Below, in pieces: positions 50,307 to 61,507 of a DNA stretch of 64,000 bases. A program made the position numbers and the translations under genes. The notes beneath the pieces are model-generated. The model was not told the DNA's origin. It did no database searches and saw nothing but the letters and a program-made list of their open reading frames with translations. This DNA is from Odontesthes bonariensis (lineage: Eukaryota; Chordata; Actinopteri; Atheriniformes; Atherinopsidae): the NCBI RefSeq assembly GCF_027942865.1, contig NC_134509.1, positions 33,530,197 to 33,594,196 of the forward strand, written 5' to 3'. The first letter of the stretch is position 1. The number at the start of each line of letters is the position of its first letter.

Positions 50307-51032
50307 CTAACTTTCCTCTTCCTCTTTTACTTCATCTTCTTCAACCTCTTGGTGGGCTTCTTCCTCCTCCATATCGTCTTCTGTTTCTCTCTGTTCCTCC
50401 TCAGCTTTTTCCTCCATTTCTGTGTCCTCTTCTTCTCCCTCCTCCTCCATATCACTGTCCTTTTCTTCTGAATCCTCTTCTTTTTCATCCACATTTTCCT
50501 CTGTCACTCCCTCCACTTCTGCCTCCTCATTTTCAGTTTCCTCTTCCCCTTTGTTTTCTTCATCTATTTCCTCCACATTTTCCTGTCTATCTCCTTCCTC
50601 ATTTTCTCCACCTTCTTCATCTTCCACTTCATCATTTTCCTCTTCTTTTTCTAGCTCCTCCTCCATTTCTTCTTCTCTCTGGTCCTCCTCTCCTTTTGTC
50701 TCTTGTTCTGCATCGTCCTCTTCTTCTACTGTCTCTGTTTCCTCTGTTTGCTCCTCCTGGACTTGCTCATCTTCCTGCACCTCCTCTGCATCTTCTCCCT
50801 TACTCTCACCAGTCTCCTCCTCTTCTTCCTCCTCGACTCCATTCTGTTCACTGTTGTGATTCTCATAGTCGTCTTTCTCAGCTTCTACATGGTTCTGCTC
50901 CTCTCCATTGGCTGTCTGGCCGTCCTGTGTTCTGTCCTCGTGGCTGTCATTGCAGATGGTTTCCTGGCCGCACCTGCCACCTGTCCCACTGCTGCTCCTC
51001 AAGTGTATGTGATTGTGGTTGTTGTGCTCCAG
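50307..51032 (-). other. Acidic low-complexity C-terminal tail of the PDE4A-like protein
   Basis: After the conserved FQFELTLED block the last exon continues in frame for about 240 residues. The first 65 are polar ([20 protein letters not shown]). The remaining 170 or so, coded by 50837-50310, are mostly Glu with Asp, Gln, Thr and Val, giving a purine-only bias on the coding strand. Mammalian PDE4A also has an acidic stretch after FELTLE but far less extreme. The opposite strand shows long open frames only because of the composition. Confidence 0.85.
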
Positions 51033-54000
51033 GTCCTCAAGAGTGAGTTCAAACTGGAAGCGGTCATGCTGTAGGTGTCTGTCAGGAGGAGGTGAAGGAG
51101 ACTGAGGCATGGTGTTCAGGTACCATTCCCTGTTCTCTTCCAGTGTGTCCAGCAGCTCCTGGGCATCTGGGTGCACCAAGTCGGCCCACGTCTCCCACAG
51201 CGGGTGCACAATATAGTCAATGAAACCCACCTAAAAAAAAAAAAAAAGAATTACATGGAAAATACTTTTGATTTAACAGAAGCCACTTTCAACAGTATAA
51301 CTATAAAAACTGAGAGGCCAGAGGAGCTTCTATATGGTCTTGATATGTGATTTAGCTAATAACAGGCTGCTGGTGGAGACACAGATGTAGGCAGGATCTC
51401 TTCTTCATCACTCACCCAAACAAATCCCATGTTCAGCAAGCTTGGCCTCATCCTTTGAGCCAAGATATCACCATGTTTGGCAAGGCACCTGACATCTAAG
51501 TTTGACATCTGAGTTGCTGACCAGATCTGGTTTTAAGATGCGTTTTTGATGGTGTGATTACAAGCAGACAGCTATAAGTACAAGTCTGAATGCATGCATG
51601 TGAGAATACATCTGAATCCAGACGCTCTCACCACATTTGGAGGCGTTTGGGCCATATATGGTCAGATTGAATTTGCAGCGGGAATGCAAATGTGTTCTAA
51701 AGCACACAGGGAATGCCTTGTCAACAGACATCTGCATATGTGACGGCATCATATAAAAGTGTGACAGCATCGTTCACTGCATCTACAAATTTGGACATGC
51801 TCATGATTGATATAGTAAAACTGATTAAAACAATTTGGCTGATTTGGTTCAGGTGGAACATGACATGGAAGACGACGAGCCTGAACTGTTTTGATATCTC
51901 TTAGCACCGTGTATTGTTGCGTATTGCCACCTCCTGCTGGTTAAAACAACAAATTTAATCTACAATTATTTGCAATGTGGAGCTTGAAGGTGAGACCTGA
52001 TCACAAGCTTTACACTTTTTGAGAAATACATTTTTAAAAAATGTGTTTTTCGGATCATCTGAAAATGGTTAGTAAATTGATTAAAAAAAATAATATATAT
52101 ATATATATAAATCATGCAAAACATAATGAGAAGTATCTACTTCCTGTTAATAATAAACAAACTCTTCTTTAGCATCACTTAGGAAAGAATTATGGGTAAA
52201 TAATGTTTTTAACTCTTACAGTAACAAACACTGTTACAAACGTTGTTAGACTTCACGTACTTCCTATTGTAAAATAATTGATGGACTTTATAGTGTAGAG
52301 AGTACAGAACTGTATAGAAAGCTGTGCTACTTTGACAGCACAATAGGTTTGGTGGACAGTGACGCTTATATTAATCTGAATAAAGTTGTTAAATTGTCTC
52401 AAACTGTTACATCACAACTTTGCTGTGGTTGGGAAACGAACATCAGAAGCACCTAAAAATAACTTCAGAGCCCATATTATATTAAGAAGTTCATAGTTAT
52501 ATAAGGAGGTTACACCAGGATAGCTTTACATGATTTAATCCACAAAGAGCCCATCATTTCTCTCGTTATGTAGATTGCTCGAGTACCTTTTTGTCAGTTT
52601 TTAGCTCCAGCCAAAAGGCTAAGCCTACCCTGATTGGCCAGCTGATATCACAAAGAGGCTAAGTATGAGTGCTCTTTCTTCATTTGAAGTGTACCAAACA
52701 AGCCACTTATTGGGCATAATGCTAAAATTCATCATGATTTCATTATGCATTATGCAGGGCAAGAAAAGCCTCAACCTGAACAAGGTATCTCAGGCAATTC
52801 ATGGGGAGACTCGAGTGGGAGCAGAAAATCCTCCTTTATTTGAGGGTTGAGCTTGTATGTGGACCTTTAACATGCGCAATAATAACCAAATAATACACTG
52901 CAGAGTTAACCCAAAAGGTTAACCCAAAAGGTGTCATCTGGCCTCTTTACCACATCTAGCATTCTGTATAAGCACTCCAAAGGTTTGCAGTTTATACAGA
53001 TTGTATTTCCAGGAATGGTTTTATCATACTGAGCCAGATTTTTTTATTTTGTCCACCTCATCCAACATAGAAACCTGCTTTTTCATGGCTCATCTGTTCT
53101 GTCTTTTAAAAGGAAATCAAAAGTTACACAGCGGTAACACAGCGGTTCATTACCTGACTCTTCTCCACAGACGCAGTGTGTTTGTCACACATAGCGCTGA
53201 TCTCCATCCCTCTCTCTCGTTCCTTGTCACCCTGTCGAAAGAACTCCTCCATGATCCTCTCTGTCCACTGCCTGTATAACGGTAGCGTCTTGGTCGGGTT
53301 GCTCAGGTCAGCACAGTGCACCATGTTCCTCAGTACCTACAGCACGCGCATACAAGATCATTGCACAGTGATTTTATGTCATATTCTTTCAATGCATACC
53401 CACATTTGCAGTGTCATGACACTTTTGCAGTGAGATGACAGGTTACCTGTATGCGCTCTGTATAGTGGTCCAGGAGCAACACACCAGAACTCGTCACCTT
53501 CTTGGTCTCCACCATGGTCTTCAAATCAGCCAGCAGAGTCATGTGTTTGGACATATCTGTGGCCAACACCTGCAGACAGACAGTTGGATCTAAACTACTC
53601 TGACAAAAACTCAAAAAACTCTTATTTTTCCTCATTTTGTTTCCTTAAACTTCGCTTGCACTTTCAGACTCACAGATCAAAGGAGATCAAGGCCCTTTCG
53701 AGATCAAATTCAATCAAATTAAATTTGTAAAGTACATTTAAAACGACCACGATTGACCAAAGTGCTGTACACATAACGCACAATGGCAATAGGAAACAAA
53801 AACAAATAAGCAGGCACAGATTAAAAGCATGTAAATACAGAACGAGAAAACCTATTAAAGATTATATTTTTTATATATATATATATATATTTTATATTTT
53901 TATATTTTTATATAATAATATATACTAGGAGCGTTAAATACAGTGTAAAAGTCACAGAGAACAACTCTGTCTTTGGGTGTGTTTTAAGAACATTAATACA

Positions 54001-57000: not shown

Positions 57001-59717
57001 GCAAGCTCGTCCTCCTGGTCTGTGTTGACACCGAAGCGAGGCATGGAAGCGCTGGAGAGGCTGGAGCTGTGAGACAGTTTCTTCACTCCACTGATGTGAC
57101 TCATAGATTTCTCTTTGAGAGTCGGAGAGGGGATTTCCTCATCGTTCTGCTTGTCTACAGATCAATGGGGCAAACACACGTCAGAGAATTGGCTGTTTTT
57201 TCTTTTTTACCCAAGGCCATACAATGTGATATGAGCAGGAATCATATTCTTATCCCACTCACCCAAAAAGGTGCTGGAGATATACTCAGACACCTGATTC
57301 CCAGAGCGACTCATCTCTGACAGATGGGAAAGTTCTCTGTTCAGCATCCTCTTAAACTGTGGCAGAGTGAGAATAAAGCAGAGAGGCAGTCTGAGTCAGT
57401 CTGATATATCTTTCTCAGAAGGACTTATTTTCTCATTTTCTGTGGAATGAAAGTGAGGATTGATATCCAAAACAGTGCATGAGCAGGTCCAGAGGTTTAA
57501 GGTTGCAGTAAAACTACGGCTCAACTAAAATAAGAGGATCTCCTTCCGATTTTGGTAGATAGCAATGCCTTGTACCCTGTTGGTGATGGGTTTCATTTTT
57601 CCCTGTTCAGTATATATTAGTCCATATTACTTACGGTCAGTTCATCAAAAAGCAATGTTAGAGTTTATGTACAGAAGATGTTTGAGCATTTAAAAGTATG
57701 GGATGACTACACATTAACATTTTTTTTAAGTTATGACAAATGTAGACTGCACGTCAACAGTAATGAGTTTGTGATCAACTTTTATCTGTTTGCTGATGTG
57801 TTAATTGACTGTCTGGTTCAGAGATGTTTTAATACCTTGTTGGAAGCCATTTCACTGACAGAGCGATGTGTCTGAATGGTCTCCAGCTGGTCCAAGCACC
57901 AGTCCAGCTCCTCCAGTGTATCCAGGGCGAGCTGCTGGTACTGCTGGTCTGATAGTGTCCCCCTGGGACCGATGCACACTCCACCAAGAGGAGACCTCCT
58001 AAAAAAATCCAGCAGTTATAACAGCAAGAACAAGCCACGTAACAAGTTCTCAACAACCCAAATATATAAAATATGTAAACCCTTGTGTATCTTGTTTTTT
58101 TTTTCAAGTTTGTTTTTTTTACTTACAAAATGTTATTATTTGTAAATGTGTTGAAAACATTTTTTAGATAAAGAAACTTATGTCTAAAGAAAAACAAAAT
58201 ATAGAATTAAAAAACTGTCTCTTTCTTTTAGTGCAGCAAATATTACACATTTCTTTTCTTTTATTTGCTTCACCAATATAGCGTGCAACAAAGTCTTACA
58301 TGGGAAAATTATAATGTTTAATAGGTTAAAATAGGTAAAAGAGGCCAATGTTTGGATTTTTCTCTGTTAAAAAGAACAAATGTGAATGTATAGGGGGTAT
58401 ATCACTATCTTTAATCAAGCGCTTTTTCATTTGAGATTTGAGAGCAAGGTTTCCTGTTTTCAAGCTCAGACAGTGTGCATCTTTTACAACAATCCAAAAG
58501 TGAACAGTGAAGATCACTAAAAGAAGAAGTTTTGCAATGATGATGAAAGAAGACTAAGTTCCAGGAGAATCGTTCATATGCACAGGATATTTGTAAGTGA
58601 AACAGTGTATTTGAATCCAAAAACACAGCTTTGGGGTAGAATATTTTTATTTAAGCAGGGACTTTCAGAGTGTGGAAACAAATAATCCTGCTCTCAAATC
58701 AAAAAAGGAAAAACCTTGTAAAAGTACAGATACAAAATATGTGCACGAGTGCACGTGTTTCCATGTTTAGCATGCTTAGGTTGATGAATAGTGGTACTTA
58801 AAAAAAATAATTAATTCAATCTGTATTGCATGCAAAAGTGGAATATTTTAGGAAAATTTGGTGTCACTGACTTGACTGTTGGCGTGGAGACGTTAGCAAG
58901 GACGCTGAAGTTGCTCCGTACTGATCTCAGACTGGCCAGAACCTAAATTGTAACATGATATCAGAGTATAATTGTGTATACAACAACAACTTCAGGAAAA
59001 TGCGGGTGTCCAGATACAAGAGGCAAATGTGTCATAGTTTTCGGAAAAATTTACATTACTGCAAATTCTTTTTTAAAATGAGGCATTGGAAGCCTTATGA
59101 AACACAATTTTTATGACTACTCATCAGGTAATTCAAAGTAATACTCTGAGTCTCACTCACTTGAGCGAAAGGTGTGACAATAAAGTCCTCTGCTGTGTGC
59201 CTGAGAGAAGGAGGGACAGTTGGAAATGAGACTGTGAGAGCAGAAACTACAGAAAGACTTTTTAAAGTAAAAAATAATTGGTACATTTTTTTGTCTCACC
59301 CTTCGCTTGCAAGGGATGAGTTACGAGAGACAGCCTTGGGTGACATGTCGTAGTCTGAGTCAGAGCGGTACAGAAAGGACTCCCTTCTCTGGCCCTGAGG
59401 GAGCGAGGTGTGCAAGGTGAGGCTTGGACTCTGCGAGCCCAGAGGGGTGTGACCCGGGGAGACGCCATTTTCTGCTTCATAACTGGAACATGATAAAGAT
59501 CATTAAAGAAGACAGAAAATAAATATTCTGTAAAGCACTATGCAAGGGGGCAATCAGTCGTTTGACATAAGGAGGAATTTGGTGTAAACCTGTCAGTGTC
59601 TGCTTGTGTGATGGAGATGCGAGGTGGGATGCGAAGGGGAAGAGTAGTGGGACGTGACATATCGCTGAGGACCTCTGGTGAACGGGTGCGGTCTCGAGGG
59701 CGGAGCCAGCAGGGCAC
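50307..59717 (-). CDS. pde4a: cAMP-specific 3',5'-phosphodiesterase 4, PDE4A-like, long form (14 exons, 5' end open)
   Basis: Exons read leftward: 59717-59590, 59482-59300, 59200-59161, 58942-58872, 57998-57836, 57356-57263, 57154-56997, 56772-56674, 56581-56417, 55068-54969, 54883-54729, 53569-53447, 53336-53154 and 51230-50307. They total 2586 bases, 861 residues plus stop. It hydrolyses cAMP. UCR1 contains the protein kinase A site in [19 protein letters not shown] and [21 protein letters not shown]2 contains [18 protein letters not shown] and [19 protein letters not shown]. The catalytic core has HNSLHAAD (exon 56581-56417) and the metal-binding HDVDHPG (exon 55068-54969), both intact. 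The ERK features PQSPSPP and FQFELTLE follow. The residues [20 protein letters not shown], and AENG with LGSQSP fit PDE4A better than B, C or D. The ERK-docking FQF is followed by a 240-residue tail that is extremely acidic. The first exon starts in phase 0, so an upstream coding exon is required. Confidence 0.9.
53688..53840. mobile_element. SINE/LINE-tail-like repeat in a PDE4A intron
   Basis: TACATTTAAAACGACCACG and TTGACCAAAGTGCTGTACAC, followed by A-rich sequence, match the theme of a common fish retroelement tail. No complete element borders are visible. Confidence 0.35.
55567..55985. mobile_element. hAT-type miniature element in a PDE4A intron
   Basis: The left end CAGGGGCGGAGCTA and right end (reverse complement) CAGTGGCGGAACAA are flanked by CTTAAATT and CTTGAATT, an 8-bp target duplication with one mismatch. 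The 419-base interior is GC-rich, with GCGCGCGC runs, and has no transposase. Confidence 0.68.
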
Positions 59718-59881
59718 CTGATGAGACAAAAGATAGACTTTGTAGATAAACGGGAGTGGACACATTTGAAGGTAGACTTTGTAGTATGCACACACGTTCT
59801 ACGATTCAAAGCTGGTTCTCAACAAAGGTGACAACTGCCTCAGGGGTCCAAAATGTTCAATTCCACTGCTATCTGGTTTAA

Positions 59882-60521
59882 AGGACAAGACCGTTTTTTT
59901 TACATTGGGCCCTTGATTTCACATTATAACATGATGTTCTACTCACCCCTGCGTGTTGTTGAACATTTGGAGCTGTTCCGAAGATATTCGCGAGGCGTCT
60001 GGCTGCTCTCTTGAGATATTCGGCCATGAAACGGTTTCCTATGGGCAAGCTTATACAGGTACAAACTATGCTGTTTATAATTTATTAATTACTCTACACT
60101 AGCACCGATAACGTGGAGGTGCGTCGCTTACTTAAAAAAATCCGGGTTACTGTAATTTTGAATTTTAGCCGAATGAATAAATAGGCAGCAGGTCTGTGGG
60201 CTGCCTGTGGCAGTAGCACGACGATGACGTCAGTAACACCCACTTTACGACAAAAAATTCAAAATTACAGTAACGCAGATTTTTTTAAGTAAGCGACGCA
60301 CCTCCACGTTATCAGTGCTAGTGTACAGTAATTAATAAGTTATAAACAGCATAGTTTGTGCCTGTATAACATTGCCCATAGGAAACTGTTTCATGGCCGA
60401 ATATCTCAAGAGAGCAGCCAGACGCCTCGCGAATGTCTTCGGAACAGCTCCAAATTACCAACAACAAGCAGGGGTGAGTAGAACATCATGTTATAATGTG
60501 AAATCAAGGGCCCAATGTCCT
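59882..60521. mobile_element. 640-bp TTAA-flanked palindromic (foldback) element
   Basis: The left arm (about 59882-60166) and right arm (about 60252-60521) are inverted copies with roughly 90% identity by eye, around an 85-base spacer. TTAA borders both ends (59878-59881 and 60522-60525). The left arm has a 17-base insertion near 59886-59902. Each arm carries a short ATG-initiated frame ending at a GTGAGT donor. The right border TTAA is shared with the adjacent miniature element. Confidence 0.7.
59947..60027 (-). CDS. Candidate alternative first coding exon of PDE4A, inside the palindrome
   Basis: On the minus strand, ATG at 60027 opens 27 codons beginning MAEYLKRAARRLANIFG and stops exactly at GGG|GTGAGT. 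This leaves phase 0, which is what the next recognised PDE4A exon (59717, GTG CCC TGC) needs. The joined product would be 888 residues. The distance is only 230 bases. The peptide is not a PDE4 N-terminus I know, and an inverted twin exists in the other arm, so it could equally be transposon sequence. Transcript evidence would decide. Confidence 0.35.
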
Positions 60522-60525
60522 TTAA

Positions 60526-60814
60526 AGCTATAATGTGTAATATTTCACGGACAATGAATGTCTCCATGTTGCTCCGCCATTTTAAAACTACGGGATTTGT
60601 AGAAGGACATGTCATCAGCTTCGCATTTTCCATTTCCACATGGAGACATTCATTGGAGTGTAACACTCTTATGTACATTCGTATGCTGAATATAAAGAAT
60701 ATAAGAACACTGCACTTTTGTGATGGAGGTAATTAATAACGATTGAGGTAATACTTGTGAATGATAAGACTCAAATTTGTTAATAGACAACGAGAAACAT
60801 TACACATTATGGCT
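60526..60814. mobile_element. TTAA-flanked miniature inverted-repeat element
   Basis: Ends AGCTATAATGTGTAATATTTC and AGCCATAATGTGTAATGTTTC (right, reverse complement) agree at 19 of 21 bases and are bordered by TTAA at 60522-60525 and 60815-60818. A second internal inverted pair, ATGAATGTCTCCATGT and ACATGGAGACATTCAT, is nested inside. It is 289 bases long with no coding capacity. Confidence 0.68.
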
Positions 60815-60984
60815 TTAACGTAATCATTCGGAGATATGCACAGAAACAAAACTCAACCTCTTTTTCAGTCTAATGCACCTATTTAGGACCACAGCAGTGT
60901 TGTGATTGCAGACATTAAGGGCCAGCCTTTGTGAAGCTGAAGAACATCTGGATCTATAGAGTGCTTTCAAATTCAATTAAAATC

Positions 60985-61435
60985 CACATCTTCAACTCAA
61001 GAGTCAAACCAGAGCTGATGTATGGTTTCAAGACATGGAAGATGACATCAGAAGACCATCACCAACAAAGTACAGACATTCACCAATAACTGCCTAAGAA
61101 GAATCTTCCAGATCAATTGGCCGGATAAGATCAGCAAACATCTATCTGTGGAAGAAAACACAACAGCAGCCAGCAGAAAATTAAATCAGAGGAAGATAGG
61201 GACGGATTGGGCACGTGCTGTGAAAGCAAGCATCAAATATTACCAGACAGGACGTGATATGGAGCCCCCAAGGGACAGGGGCTGGGTAAGAAAAGCCTAA
61301 CGAAGAAACCTCCAGACAAACATCATAAGAAGCCTAATGAAGAGGACAGGCCTCACCTGGTGCCAGCTTGGAGCAGCAGCACAGCAGAGGGGCAAGTGGG
61401 AGTCTCAAAGTGGGGTAATGGGGTATGAACACATA
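60985..61435 (+). mobile_element. LINE C-terminal fragment (RTE/Nimb-like)
   Basis: Across frameshifts the plus strand reads KPELMYGFKTWKMTSEDHH, FTNNCLRRIFQINWPDKIS and later LMKRTGLTWCQLGAAAQQR. This is the pattern of the conserved C-terminal region downstream of the reverse transcriptase in several vertebrate LINE clades. The frame is broken more than once, so it is inactive. Confidence 0.6.
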
Positions 61436-61507
61436 TCCTTAGGTCCTTTAGTAAACACTAACAGACTGAGAGTATCTGAGAAATCCTGTTTCAAGAGAGA
61501 CATCTTA

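Follow-up and report, generated by a model that had tools for sequence, protein, structure and literature searches.

The 640-bp palindrome that lies beside a PDE4 gene in Odontesthes bonariensis is most probably (at about 0.88) a recent copy of a high-copy, non-autonomous foldback transposon of Kolobok type, with the ATG frame in its arms carried as a passenger and its nearness to PDE4 due to chance. It was found in a 64,000-nucleotide stretch of one contig, referred to here as the window, and the features discussed are collected in Table 1. The locus is judged ordinary.

An earlier note on this DNA had described a TTAA-flanked palindrome, and this description holds: two stretches of 265 nt (59902-60166 and 60254-60518) are 95% complementary across an 87-nt spacer, with TTAA directly outside both ends. 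The family consensus, built from 40 aligned copies, is 663 bp with the TTAA on each side counted in, and the window copy departs from it by 15 mismatches and a 17-nt gap, the missing nucleotides belonging near its right end; so small a divergence suggests that the window insertion is recent. Folded as single-stranded RNA, the palindrome gives one long hairpin of -481 kcal/mol (mean of 20 shuffles, -158.6), which is what any such palindrome would give, and no known RNA family matched positions 59000-61500 up to E 1. Adjoining the palindrome is a second TTAA-bounded inverted-repeat element of ~300 bp (60522-60818), with 28-nt ends (TTAAAGCTATAATGTGT... and ...ACACATTATGGCTTTAA) that are 89% complementary. 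As the two elements have the palindrome's right TTAA in common, one of them seems to have landed at the other's edge.

Table 1. Features of the palindromic element and of the neighbouring PDE4 exon, in window coordinates
Feature	Position	Strand	Basis or remark
Whole palindromic element with TTAA flanks, putative Kolobok-type foldback MITE	59878..60525	.	Inverted-repeat and copy comparison
Element proper, TTAA excluded	59882-60521		
Flanking TTAA copies	59878-59881 and 60522-60525		
Left arm	59882..60166	-	Terminus AGGACAAGACCG, then the part pairing with the right arm
Right arm	60254..60521	+	End ...GTCCT adjoining TTAA
Loop between paired arms	60167..60253	.	Holds TGACGTCA at 60225
Left-arm ATG frame, 27 codons	59947..60027	-	MAEYLKRAARRLANIFGTAPNVQQHAG; donor GTGAGT 59946-59941
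Right-arm ATG frame, 27 codons	60393..60473	+	MAEYLKRAARRLANVFGTAPNYQQQAG; donor GTGAGT 60474-60479
PDE4 exon (host gene, outside element)	59590..59717	-	Acceptor CAG directly before 59717

The copy number of the palindromic family is large. A search for other genomic copies, proposed in the earlier note, was made in the same genome (945 Mb, 187 contigs) with the window copy as query, and the best 40 of 1,900 candidates were scored; besides the window's own place, these comprise 39 places where 637 or more of the 640 bases align at 96-97% identity. When the 27-residue frame was used as a protein query, 3,667 candidates came up and the best 150 of them were scored, all at 93-100% identity; both scored counts (40 for DNA, 150 for protein) are bounds on the scoring rather than copy numbers. 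The 40 aligned DNA copies (L001-L040) diverge from their consensus by a mean of 1.36%, gaps apart. Forty further loci (L041-L070 and L073-L082) include four that repeat earlier copies (L041, L048, L059 and one of L046/L069), the other 36 holding the same element, in some cases internally shortened, and all 30 loci fetched from the protein-search matches contain it. Rare variants within copies (120 instances) fall in a single arm in 111 cases and in both arms in nine, giving no strong sign of arm homogenisation. No description of this palindromic element was found in the one literature collection searched.

This dispersal decides the first of two explanations offered in the earlier note, that a first exon was doubled head to head; at this locus it would be a segmental inverted duplication of a host exon. 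Such an event would leave an ATG-donor unit in two opposed copies, as seen here, but TTAA bounds both ends in 39 of the 40 aligned copies, and the flanks vary between copies except in L011 and L022, which have theirs in common and therefore represent one insertion inside a duplicated stretch. The whole palindrome arrived as a mobile element, as it did in dozens of other places, and a duplicated host exon, which the scattered copies flanked by TTAA at either end exclude, retains only a negligible probability.

The termini of the family are AGGAY...RTCCT, most copies reading AGGA[C/T]AAGACCG...CGGTCTT[G/A]TCCT; written with its flank, the terminus is TTAA-AGGAYAAGACCG. The element is short, consists of inverted repeats, carries a frame that varies neutrally and recurs at 96-97% identity in 39 other places (among the best 40 of 1,900 candidates), as is usual for a MITE. 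PiggyBac termini are of the 5'-CC type, and the AG...CT termini of the element do not agree with them. Kolobok elements target TTAA and are set apart from piggyBac by their 5'-RR...YY-3' ends (PMC9587614); the AGGAY...RTCCT termini have this RR...YY form, and a TTAA target-site duplication is present in 39 of 40 copies, the window copy among them. In Xenopus, T2-MITEs are likewise associated with TTAA and have terminal AGGRR, and one full-length Kolobok begins with AGGACAAGG beside TTAA, its start being given as AGGACAAGGAAAGCTT (PMC6004289). The palindromic family is thus probably of Kolobok type, a membership that is founded on its ends and TTAA and not on a parent element.

Kolobok-type elements do occur in this genome. 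An autonomous Kolobok partner would encode a DDD/E transposase with THAP/H2CH features. THAP domains were scored for the best 150 of 1,545 candidates, and among the 30 of these that were read, four loci (L083, L084, L085 and L093) lie within elements with TTAA-AGGGA...TCCCT-TTAA ends, a fifth (L095) showing the right end. Two of these THAP-bearing elements are 961-962 bp long (L084 1307-2267 and L085 1306-2267); their THAP-domain frame spans 139 codons from stop to stop, no other frame exceeds 93 codons, and they are perhaps THAP-only Kolobok-type derivatives. The PF20700 transposase gave two matches among six candidates, both near 30.55 Mb of contig C2, one being a fragment at L071 1408-2163 (Pfam E 8.7e-42); beside it is a minus-strand frame that resembles an L1-type ORF1. 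Within ~1.5 kb on each side of the THAP and PF20700 matches at 32 loci (L071, L072 and L083-L112), no autonomous parent with AGGAY...RTCCT ends was found, and the only resemblance to the terminus was one 13-base chance match.

The earlier note had drawn attention to an ATG frame of 27 codons ending at a GTGAGT donor in each arm. Frame and donor are present in both arms, and both frames point outwards, but the donor is not where they end: the open frame continues through GTGAGT to the end of the element, for 46 codons in the right arm and 49 in the left, despite the residue differences between the arms that the note had remarked upon. Measured from stop to stop, the open runs are 64 and 67 codons, respectively. 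Among the first 28 copies, the 27-codon frame is open in 55 of 56 arms and GTGAGT is present in all 56, while in 51 of 56 the frame passes the donor, runs for 49 codons and stops in the flanking TTAA. The 27-residue frame had no Pfam match at E values up to 10, and its only match to a solved structure, 14 residues of a designed protein (E 0.00096), was taken as chance, so it was rejected as a known protein.

Over all loci, 165 frame matches were obtained, leaving 154 distinct arms once duplicates were removed. Twenty-nine of these correspond to loci fetched from the protein search (28 intact, one without GT); the remaining 125 comprise 118 intact, three truncated, two with an indel, one without GT and one with a stop. 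By source, 70 of 72 arms are intact in L001-L040, 28 of 30 among the partner or neighbour arms in L041-L070, and 20 of 23 in L073-L082. It had been proposed that many genomic copies with broken frames would mark the frame as a chance feature of a repeat; the many copies are there, but their frames are mostly unbroken, with 118 of 125 arms intact in a sample biased towards intact copies, as 72 of the 125 come from the top DNA matches and part of the rest appear in the protein list as well.

It is the youth of the family that explains why most of these frames are intact. Rare variants, defined as those seen in one or two of the 154 distinct arms, occupy 19 of 60 sites upstream of the frame, 27 of 81 within it, two of six in the donor and 19 of 60 downstream, so variation is as dense in the frame as around it. 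The count of synonymous and non-synonymous differences that had been suggested for the two arms was run over the arms of the family: five of the 27 in-frame rare variants are synonymous against an expected share of 24% (one-sided P 0.82), as a first pass over 80 arms had found two of 16 variant types within the 27 codons to be synonymous against an expected 25%. Selection on the frame was accordingly rejected, and purifying selection on frame or donor was not seen among the 154 arms by either variant density or synonymous share, a test that rests on 27 events and is compatible with weak constraint. As for the arm differences themselves, NVQQHAG/NYQQQAG reflects variation standing in the family: among 80 arms, GAC, TAC and GTT (encoding D, Y and V) each occur in quantity at codon 22, and six arms have H at codon 25. 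IFG/VFG is rare, occurring in two of 154 arms, namely one in L057 and the right arm of the window copy.

How readily such a frame arises by chance was gauged with shuffles of the half-element that kept its dinucleotides (3000 for frame plus donor, 2000 for the open run). An ATG frame of at least 20 codons ending at GTRAGT appeared in 1.4% of the 3000 shuffles in phase 0 and in 3.0% in any phase; with at least 27 codons the figure was 2.1% in any phase, and 20% with a looser donor. An open run of 67 codons occurred in 27% of the 2000 shuffles and is hence not unusual. The combination of frame and donor is mildly unusual and was chosen after the fact; the shuffle evidence is weak because the feature was picked after the 64-kb window had been read.

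Given the 1.4-3% chance figure and the open frames in most arms read, the half-unit may have begun as a genuine promoter-proximal exon. On such an account, a host gene or the transposon's parent would have supplied a promoter and first exon that were captured, doubled into a palindrome and amplified, the frame having once been coding. Copy L073 (2281-5207) bears on this: the centre of this palindrome is palindromic in its own right and holds TGACGTCA in each half, and each arm may therefore amount to a full half-unit. This copy had been considered as a longer progenitor, with 2,927 bp between its ends, and was rejected as such, being the same palindrome with a nested insertion of ~2.2 kb (CAGTGGCGATTCTAG...CTAAAATCGCCATTG). 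On the strength of this one copy, the palindromic centre suggests a founder made of two whole half-units joined head to head, from which the common form, with its unpaired loop, would have been derived. Against a captured exon, the frame matches neither a Pfam family nor a natural solved protein, the open run extends beyond the donor as far as the element goes, something not required of an exon, and the 150 listed protein matches (the best of 3,667 candidates) are all at 93% or above, the 30 fetched loci all holding the element, though a diverged source gene could sit among the 3,517 unscored candidates. A captured exon is therefore doubtful, and a passenger frame is preferred.

The host gene is a PDE4, as identified by its catalytic exons. 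Compared with solved structures, these score best against PDE4D (E 2.6e-144) and PDE4B (E 2.2e-143), the PDE4A and PDE4C chains scoring slightly below, and a further 29-residue stretch of the gene matches PDE4B. On the minus strand, its recognised exons span 59717 to ~50307; the far end of the exon nearest the element, before GT at 59589, is putative. The last exon (50307-51230, minus strand) continues into a very long glutamate-rich acidic tail, longer than is usual in mammalian PDE4 proteins. The earlier note had placed the left-arm frame, in phase 0, 230 bases from a phase-0 exon of PDE4A: the phases agree across a potential intron of 229 nt (59946-59718) and the gene is a PDE4, the 'A' paralogue being a tentative assignment. 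A chimeric element-PDE4 transcript is possible.

That the element works as an outward promoter and first exon, and gives PDE4 a new 27-residue N-terminus, would fit this arrangement of ATG, open phase-0 frame, GTGAGT and a phase-0 exon 229 nt further on, and zebrafish DNA transposons documented as new first exons provide a precedent (PMC9341505). The loop also contains the 7-base core GACGTCA, once in each of 40 of 40 copies. The full octamer TGACGTCA, which we take to be the cAMP-response octamer, is exact in only 22 of 40, and octamers of its type occur six times in the 64-kb window, so a conserved octamer was set aside as strong evidence. Selection on frame or donor was not seen in the 154 arms, and the recency of the insertion speaks against any long-conserved role. 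This function at the locus is unlikely, and it is very improbable that the family acts as a natural bidirectional gene trap, each copy bearing two outward start exons with splice donors, inherited through capture of a promoter and first exon, and the family scattering potential new N-termini over the genome, one of them in phase with PDE4. The second explanation in the earlier note, a transposon supplying start exons, thus stands as to the carrier, which is a transposon, but the frame gives no sign of use as an exon: it varies like its surroundings, is not bounded by the donor and matches no Pfam family.

Under the preferred reading, that of a Kolobok-type foldback transposon, a transposase acting in trans would recognise the AGGAY.../...RTCCT ends, insert the element at TTAA and duplicate that TTAA, as ends and flanks imply. 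Both arms are one half-unit in opposite orientation, and since this unit is present twice and opposed, the ATG frame with GTGAGT appears twice, facing outwards. The frame would be a passenger inherited from the family founder that came by chance to lie 229 bp from a PDE4 exon of phase 0; even so, the element could occasionally give rise to chimeric transcripts, as is seen with some DNA transposons of zebrafish. The palindrome thus adds one more young TTAA-targeting foldback MITE. If its outward start exons were spliced, a repeat of so many copies would offer a system in which to study how frequently chance insertions create new N-termini, with PDE4 as an in-phase example. It also counsels caution, since intact frames in young repeats can be explained without selection.

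Among known systems close to the element are the T2-MITEs and Kolobok of Xenopus, with which it shares TTAA flanks, AGG-initial ends and similar non-autonomous copies; it differs in that its arms pair over nearly the whole length and the fifth base of its terminus is Y (AGGAY) rather than that of AGGRR, and its terminus in the window, AGGACAAGACCG, may be set against the full-length Kolobok start AGGACAAGG (PMC6004289). Like the piggyBac-linked CMITEs of corals (PMC2872659) it is a short, non-coding inverted-repeat element, and like piggyBac (PMC9587614) it targets TTAA, but its termini are 5'-AG...CT-3' (RR...YY), the distinction that marks Kolobok according to PMC9587614. With the transposon-derived first exons of zebrafish it shares a DNA transposon in or near a gene and a potential first exon; those cases, as described in PMC9341505, have RNA and partly chromatin support, whereas the present element is known from its sequence.
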